From: Candidatus Igneacidithiobacillus taupoensis
GTDB lineage: Bacteria > Pseudomonadota > Gammaproteobacteria > Acidithiobacillales > Acidithiobacillaceae
Assembly (NCBI GenBank): GCA_021375695.1
Contig: JAEPKX010000017.1
Coordinates: 1 to 34,319 of the forward strand
Reading direction: 5' to 3'
DNA length: 34,319 bases
Under the pieces are notes generated by a model, which saw only the letters and a program-made list of their open reading frames with translations, ran no database searches and was not told where the DNA came from. This document shows, piece by piece, positions 31,635-34,319 of the stretch. The position numbers and the translations under genes are program-made. The first letter of the stretch is position 1, and every line of letters begins with the position of its first letter.

Positions 31635-32504
31635 ATGTCCAATAAGCATCCCGTCATTGCGGTGACAGGTTCATCGGGTGCCGGTACGACCACCGTCAAA
31701 CACGCCTTCCATGATATTTTCCGCCGGCTAGGGGTCAATCCGGTTATTATTGAAGGTGACAGCTTTCATCGTTATAACCGGGTGGAAATGCGGGAAGCCA
31801 TTGCCAGGGCCGCAGCCGAGGGTAAAACCATCAGTCATTTTGGCCCGGAAGGAAATGACTTTGGCGCCTTGGAAACCTTGTTTCGTACCTATGGCGAAAC
31901 GGGCACGGGACAGATGCGTTACTATGTCCATGATGACGCCGAGGCGGAGCTGCGCGGGAGCGCCCCGGGTACCTTTACTCCATGGCAAAGCATCCCACCT
32001 GGAACGGATTTGCTTTTTTATGAAGGTCTGCACGGTGGCGTCAAAACCCCGGAGCATGATGTGGCGAACTATGTGGACCTGCTGGTGGGGGTGGTCCCTG
32101 TTGTCAACCTGGAATGGATCCAGAAGATCCATCGGGACAACGCTCAGCGCGGCTATTCCGCCGAGGCCATCGTCGACACCATTCTGCGGCGTATGCCCGA
32201 TTACATTAACTATATCACCCCCCAGTTCAGCCGGACCCACATCAATTTTCAACGGGTACCTTTGGTAGATACTTCCAATCCATTCATCGCCCGAGATATC
32301 CCTACCCCGGACGAAAGCATGGTGGTAATCCGCTTTAGAGATCACAAGGAAGAGAACTTCCCCTATCTTTTGCAAATGATTCCTGGCAGCTTCATGTCCC
32401 GGAAAAATACCATGGTTATCCCTGGCAGCAAGATGGGTTATGCCATGGAATTGATCCTTGGTCCGCGGATCGAACGGTTGCTGGAACAGCGCCAGCACTT
32501 ATGA
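31635..32504 (+). CDS. prk: Phosphoribulokinase, class I (proteobacterial)
   Basis: Phosphorylates ribulose-5-phosphate to ribulose-1,5-bisphosphate, the CO2 acceptor of RuBisCO. The 289-aa length and sequence match the octameric proteobacterial class: P-loop VTGSSGAGTTTVKHAF near the N-terminus, IEGDSFHRYNR with the catalytic Asp, YYVHDDAEAELRG, LLFYEGLHGGV with the Walker B-like region, and RMPDYINYITPQFSRTHINFQRVP. AAGGAG lies ten nucleotides before ATG 31635. It follows metF by 91 nt that contain a candidate promoter and inverted repeats. RuBisCO is not in the window. E. coli-type PrkB paralogues look similar, but the autotroph-like setting favours a true Calvin-cycle enzyme (cbbP). Confidence 0.93.
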   Translation: MSNKHPVIAVTGSSGAGTTTVKHAFHDIFRRLGVNPVIIEGDSFHRYNRVEMREAIARAAAEGKTISHFGPEGNDFGALETLFRTYGETGTGQMRYYVHDDAEAELRGSAPGTFTPWQSIPPGTDLLFYEGLHGGVKTPEHDVANYVDLLVGVVPVVNLEWIQKIHRDNAQRGYSAEAIVDTILRRMPDYINYITPQFSRTHINFQRVPLVDTSNPFIARDIPTPDESMVVIRFRDHKEENFPYLLQMIPGSFMSRKNTMVIPGSKMGYAMELILGPRIERLLEQRQHL

Positions 32505-32525
32505 GATTGGGTTTGCTTGATCATC

Positions 32526-32570
32526 ACCACACGGGGCGAAGAGGCAAAAAAGTGTGGTTATTCTTCTATT
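32526..32570 (+). terminator. Candidate terminator after phosphoribulokinase
   Basis: ACCACAC (32526-32532) pairs perfectly with GTGTGGT (32552-32558), with a 19-nt loop, followed by TATTCTTCTATT. The long loop makes it a weak candidate. The rest of the 219-nt gap (32505-32723) holds no ORF or other structure I can support apart from the patB promoter. Confidence 0.3.
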
Positions 32571-32711
32571 GAGGCTTTCTCGCCCTAAGTGCGATTCCGG
32601 CAGATATTATGGTCAAATTCTCCCGACCTTCGATTTTCTCTTTGCCCAGTTTCTATGCTGATGAAACAAGGGAATGTCCAGAGTTTCTGGCATCTGGTCA
32701 CCTACCCGGCT

Positions 32712-32717
32712 TAAAAT
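32712..32717 (+). promoter_or_regulatory. Candidate -10 box placing the patB transcript start on its ATG
   Basis: TAAAAT (5 of 6 to the -10 consensus) ends 6 nt before the patB ATG at 32724, so transcription would begin at or next to the A of the start codon. A CTGGCA at 32687-32692 is a possible but badly spaced (19 nt) -35. Confidence 0.35.
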
Positions 32718-32723
32718 TATGGT

Positions 32724-33890
<1,167 letters not shown>

Positions 33891-33894
33891 AGGG

Positions 33895-33934
33895 TGGTGA
33901 CCCGGATGCGAATCGAACGCATGACCTACCGTTT
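33895..33934 (-). other. 3' half of a tRNA gene with CCA end (likely attachment-site remnant)
   Basis: Read on the minus strand, the last 40 nt of a tRNA are present. They comprise anticodon-loop AA, the 3' anticodon stem ACGGT, a 5-nt variable loop AGGTC, a perfect T-arm (ATGCG-TTCGATT-CGCAT with canonical loop), the acceptor strand CCGGGTC, discriminator A and encoded CCA. The 5' half is missing: no D-arm and no matching GACCCGG appears in the 70 nt beyond, and position 33 is G instead of T, so the break lies at the anticodon loop. Such 3' halves are what tRNA-targeting integrases duplicate at att sites. The tRNA identity cannot be told because the anticodon is lost. Confidence 0.75.
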
Positions 33935-33945
33935 GGGCGGCAGTC

Positions 33946-34319
33946 ATGGAAGATGCAGATTTGTCAGTATCCACTCATCGGAATAACCTGCTACGGGCCC
34001 TGCTGCTGCAAGTGTTTTATAGCATCCGCTCCGAGCGGCAGCTGATGGAACAACTGGACTACAACCTGTTGTTCCGCTGGTTCGTGGGCCTGGGGATGGA
34101 TGCCCCCGTCTGGGTGCCCACGGTCTTCACCAAGAACCGGGACCGGTTGCTGGATCATGGCATCATCCACCAGTTCTTCCACTCGGTGGTCCAGCAGGCG
34201 CGGGAACAAGGGCTGCTGTCCGAAGAGCACTTCTCGGTGGATGGGACACTCCTGGAAGCCTGGGCCTCGCAAAAGTCCTTCCAGCCCAAAGATCCTGAGG
34301 ACCGCAATGGTGACGGCTC
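33946..34319 (+). mobile_element. IS5-family transposase, 5'-truncated and cut by the window end
   Basis: From 33988 the frame encodes LLRALLLQVFYSIRSERQL, then LDYNLLFRWFVGLGMDAPVW, TVFTKNRDRLL and HFSVDGTLLEAWASQKSF, typical of IS5-group transposases. The Asp in SVDGTLLEAWAS is the first residue of the DDE triad. Full members have about 55-60 residues before LLRALLLQ; here only about 14 unrelated residues can precede it (ATG 33946, with an in-frame stop at 33922), so the 5' end and left terminal repeat are gone. The gene is still open at the window edge, so the rest cannot be judged. It abuts the tRNA remnant. Confidence 0.85.

Follow-up and report, generated by a model that had tools for sequence, protein, structure and literature searches.

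Genes and features at the end of the contig

The window analysed here, a stretch of 34,319 nucleotides from Candidatus Igneacidithiobacillus taupoensis, is the entire contig C53 of a draft assembly (62 contigs; genome 1.73 Mb). At its end, two host genes are followed by the 3' part of a tRNA-Arg(CCU) gene, a short spacer and a piece of an IS5-family transposase gene (Table 1). Four bases lie between the patB stop codon and the tRNA fragment, as a preliminary description of the sequence had correctly given. The homologue of the patB-like gene in G002, a genome of the same family, carries PF00155. The same description had placed a truncated IS5 gene 11 nt from the fragment. This distance holds for an ATG, but homology to the IS begins only at 33986, ~40 nt off; the gene is truncated in that its first ~60 codons are gone, but its 3' part is cut only by the end of the contig, which lies 374 nt beyond the start codon of the broken gene. 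Direct insertion of IS5 into the tRNA was rejected because the IS lacks its 5' end and begins ~40 nt away. The spacer had no match among the flanks of the orphan tRNA halves of relatives.

Table 1. Features at the end of the window, with the evidence for each
Feature	Position	Strand	Evidence
prk (phosphoribulokinase/uridine kinase)	31635..32504	+	PF00485; 88% identical to the gene beside the empty site (G026) and beside the orphan half (G028)
patB-like aminotransferase, the host gene closest to the half tRNA	32724..33890	+	62% identity to G002, G003 and G007 genes in the vicinity of tRNA-Arg(CCU)
tRNA-Arg(CCU) positions 39-76: anticodon stem 3' strand, variable loop, T-arm, acceptor 3' strand, discriminator A, CCA	33895..33932	-	32/38 identity to the intact tRNA-Arg(CCU) of G005 and of G001; sequence search match, E 8e-8
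Positions 26-38: anticodon loop and 5' side of its stem, damaged; crossover presumably in this region	33933..33945	-	9 of 13 bases match, and 0.06% of the window's 13-mers score this high; orphan halves of relatives start on the same arm
Spacer of ~40 nt, presumed element DNA or rearrangement junction	33946..33985		Without match in 29 family genomes; lies between the end of the tRNA matches (33944) and the first IS homology (33986)
Interior part of a transposase gene of the IS5 family (ISAtc5-like)	33986..34319	+	77-78% DNA identity over 332-334 nt to L049/L050; PF05598; protein comparison

Sequence and identity of the tRNA fragment

On the minus strand, the fragment reads CCCAAACGGTAGGTCATGCGTTCGATTCGCATCCGGGTCACCA from 33937 to 33895. 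The T-arm is fully paired (ATGCG-TTCGATT-CGCAT) and is followed by the acceptor strand CCGGGTC, the discriminator A and CCA. From position 26 to the CCA (positions 26-76), 42 of 51 bases are identical to the tRNA-Arg(CCU) of congeners. The maximum in 60 Markov-randomised windows was 30, and the runner-up place in the window scored 26. A 102-nt query matched tRNA-Arg(CCU) in most genomes of the family, mainly over query positions 5-54 or less, which correspond to 33895-33944 of the window. The homology thus extends from 33895 to ~33944-33945, that is, to tRNA position 26-27 on the 5' side of the anticodon stem, while positions 1-25 match only at chance level and are absent. The preliminary description of an orphan 3' half at 33895-33934, with everything 5' of the anticodon loop missing, was right about the nature of the fragment but set its boundary too early, since the 5' side of the anticodon stem is retained within a damaged arm. 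It had also called the T-arm, acceptor strand and CCA perfect; this applies to the T-stem, but base 71 is T in the fragment and G in the relatives.

The anticodon arm has decayed, with G33, CCC in place of CCU (base 36) and a C31-A39 mismatch. In the T-stem, the fragment differs from G005 at three bases (A51-U63 to G-C, G49-U65 to A-U); all three differences preserve pairing, and two together make up a double change. Such changes indicate that the fragment was once part of a working tRNA, and by its sequence it appears to be a once-working 3' half that has decayed since. tRNA-Gly(CCC), considered as the parent from the CCC in the loop, was rejected because the genome's own tRNA-Gly(CCC) is located elsewhere and because the fragment aligns to tRNA-Arg(CCU) including the AGGTC variable loop. 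ARAGORN and Rfam reported no tRNA at the fragment, as expected for half a gene, and the complete cloverleaf of a functional tRNA gene is absent from it. No second copy with up to 3 mismatches was detected in the genome assembly. A collection-wide exact search with the T-arm matched only 23 contigs, all of unrelated organisms and mostly of gut bacteria, and the same search of viral contigs gave zero matches. Taken alone, the hairpin of the fragment has no unusual stability (z -1.8). Within 33918-33948 of the window, CATGAC (minus strand, just 5' of the anticodon stem) is complementary to GTCATG (variable loop and start of the T-stem), so that the scar folds into a hairpin longer than that of a tRNA; this complementarity possibly represents the symmetry of an integrase core site, or chance.

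The parent tRNA and the assembly gap

A search of the genus with a pattern of the tRNA-Arg(CCU) anticodon loop and T-loop detected one such gene per genome in all seven congeners. In the fragment's own genome, neither this search nor the 41 detected tRNAs included a tRNA-Arg(CCU). The intact tRNA that had been expected to share the 40 nt is thus missing from the species' own assembly but present throughout its congeners. Intact or contig-cut copies of tRNA-Arg(CCU) also occur in 26 of the 28 other genomes of the family. In nearly all relatives, its 5' neighbour is a Na/Ca-exchanger gene (PF01699), which adjoins the intact tRNA in 23 loci. The exchanger gene of this genome lies on contig C37, which stops ~7 nt before the expected start of tRNA-Arg(CCU). 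Because C37 keeps the upstream region and then ends at the expected start, the missing tRNA-Arg(CCU) falls in the gap beyond C37, and an intact copy presumably lies there. No matching full integrase was detected in the assembly of this genome. Four integrase matches are present elsewhere in it, none of them linked to the candidate island.

Other tRNA genes of this assembly (G000) also lie near integrase genes or contig ends. An integrase gene (L148, G000:C51:1972-2439) is located just 3' of tRNA-Pro(GGG) (C51:2537-2610), which is probably another occupied tRNA site. An integrase remnant with a stop codon (L149, G000:C29:59924-60061) is found near the end of C29, ~2.2 kb 3' of tRNA-Arg(UCU), and is 50% identical over 50 aa to an integrase of G023. 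In addition, several contigs begin or end 0-10 nt from the CCA of a tRNA gene (Met, Leu(UAG), Thr(CGU), Cys and Gln(CUG); C40 start, C39 start, C20 end, C33 end and C46 end/C28 start), a pattern that further tRNA-borne elements or variable sites may have produced by breaking the assembly. C46 and C28 share a 126-nt overlap.

Synteny and use of the site in relatives

Comparison of the locus in relatives, which the preliminary description had proposed, yielded both an empty site and an occupied one; the genomes compared are relatives and not strains of this species. The empty site, made up of the exchanger gene, tRNA-Arg(CCU) and prk, is seen in G025 and G026. In G028, prk adjoins an orphan 3' half, and the flank beyond its CCA is the same DNA as in G026. 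The window, with prk, patB and the orphan half, shows the G028-type border with patB in between. With the exchanger on C37, the tRNA expected next to it, and prk, patB and the half on C53, synteny places the fragment at the far border of the tRNA-Arg(CCU) site. The order sahH-metF-prk upstream of patB is common to the window, G003 and G007. At least two genes lie between patB and tRNA-Arg(CCU) in G002, G003, G004 and G007, so that the native 3' flank in this species is not established. The spacing of prk and patB is 220 nt here (window 32504-32724) and 14-16 kb in G003 and G007, so that either this 1.73-Mb genome has been compacted here or the others have expanded.

Several relatives carry integrase elements at the same tRNA. 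Genes for PF00589 integrases are located just 3' of the intact tRNA-Arg(CCU) in G020, G023 and G027, with a near-identical one in G022, and integrase remnants occupy this position in several more genomes, among them the congeners G001 and G006. Orphan 3' halves that start at the anticodon arm were detected at the ends of elements in G020, G023 (two), G027 and G028, and the break point of the fragment (position 26-27) is close to their starts. In the tandem array of G023 (G023:C1:664668-682463; L139, L140), the intact gene comes first, followed by an integrase, proteins of the Toprim and AAA_25 types, one orphan half, a second integrase remnant, transposases and the other orphan half; the first integrase element of the array spans ~7 kb. 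In G001, where an integrase remnant adjoins the intact gene, a second orphan tRNA-Arg(CCU)-like 3' half (26/36; L101:2324-2359, minus strand) lies ~3 kb beyond that gene.

Origin of the fragment

The fragment derives from tRNA-Arg(CCU), it occupies the syntenic place, and integrase elements of relatives use the same site. Very probably, it is the displaced 3' half of tRNA-Arg(CCU), an attachment-site remnant left by the integration of an island, and by analogy with the relatives this copy would have arisen by integrase insertion. A tyrosine-integrase element would have inserted into tRNA-Arg(CCU) by crossover in the anticodon arm. The 3' half carried by the element would have rebuilt the tRNA on the exchanger side, and the old half would have been pushed to the far end, beside patB and prk, where its anticodon arm, free of selection, could decay. 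An IS5 copy just inside the island may have been broken later; the truncated IS5 is thus probably a passenger inside the border and not the cause of the scar. The candidate island itself is best read as falling in the assembly gap. The earlier proposal of an integration scar at an island border is largely borne out: the parent tRNA was found in relatives and is an integration site there. A matching tRNA absent from both the genome and its relatives had been named as speaking against it; this was not the case, as the relatives have tRNA-Arg(CCU).

An unlikely alternative is that a deletion or an IS5-linked rearrangement truncated the native tRNA-Arg(CCU) where it stood and that this genome has truly lost it, AGG being read by wobble of tRNA-Arg(UCU). 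The assembly indeed has tRNA-Arg(UCU) and no tRNA-Arg(CCU), AGG is an infrequent codon (5 per 1000 in the genes of the window), the genome is small with patB and prk compacted relative to congeners, and a broken IS5 lies ~40 nt from the fragment. However, the IS piece comes from inside its gene and lies apart from the tRNA, the break in the anticodon arm is that of integrase-made halves, and the absence of the tRNA sits at a gap, C37 being intact up to the expected start. It is similarly improbable that the species has lost a tRNA-Arg(CCU) kept by the rest of the family, with the tRNA of the hot spot left unrestored after an insertion or deletion. Less probable still is a chimeric contig end, in which the last few hundred bases of C53 are foreign to the patB neighbourhood. 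Such an error would suit a contig of a 62-contig draft that ends in an IS, but the join fits conserved synteny, as prk lies beside a tRNA-Arg(CCU) 3' half in G028 and beside the intact gene in G025 and G026.

As a displaced half, the fragment marks one border of the integration hot spot at tRNA-Arg(CCU), which runs family-wide as exchanger-tRNA-Arg(CCU)-prk in Acidithiobacillus-like bacteria. It also names C37 and C53 as the contigs that flank the candidate missing island, which aids assembly and island mapping. No general view is changed by this border; scars of this type are well known, and this is an ordinary further case.

Comparison with known systems

The argW gene of E. coli encodes tRNA-Arg(CCU). 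The prophage KplE1/CPS-53 sits at argW with its core duplicated, and resembles the present case as an element in a tRNA gene with a duplicated core, but that core is 16 nt at the very 3' end, in contrast to the half tRNA from the anticodon here (PMC2951348). Islander catalogues genomic islands at tDNAs on the principle of the displaced tDNA fragment and recognizes crossover subsites in the anticodon loop, the T loop and the T/acceptor junction (PMC4383910). The integrase and orphan-half arrangement of the relatives is the Islander signature with an anticodon-centred crossover. In the window, the displaced 3' tDNA fragment lies at the far end with a host-side gene beyond it and breaks in the anticodon region (Islander class A), but unlike in Islander islands, this assembly contains neither the partner intact tDNA nor the integrase. 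Many genomic islands and ICEs of A. caldus at tRNA genes have direct repeats of ~45-50 nt of the 76-77 nt tRNA (PMC3826726). These resemble the ~43-51 nt here, but the targets differ and include Arg-TCT, Arg-CCG and Lys-CTT, among others. An island at this target is already published: according to PMC10322971 on Acidithiobacillus ferrooxidans CCM 4253, the 37-kb genomic island iMGE11_CCM4253 is located at tRNA Arg-CCT, an integrase is recorded for it, and its integration was confirmed by PCR. Excision was shown there for five of six tested elements, the passage not specifying which five. On that account, iMGE11_CCM4253 shares its target tRNA with the site described here, in another species.
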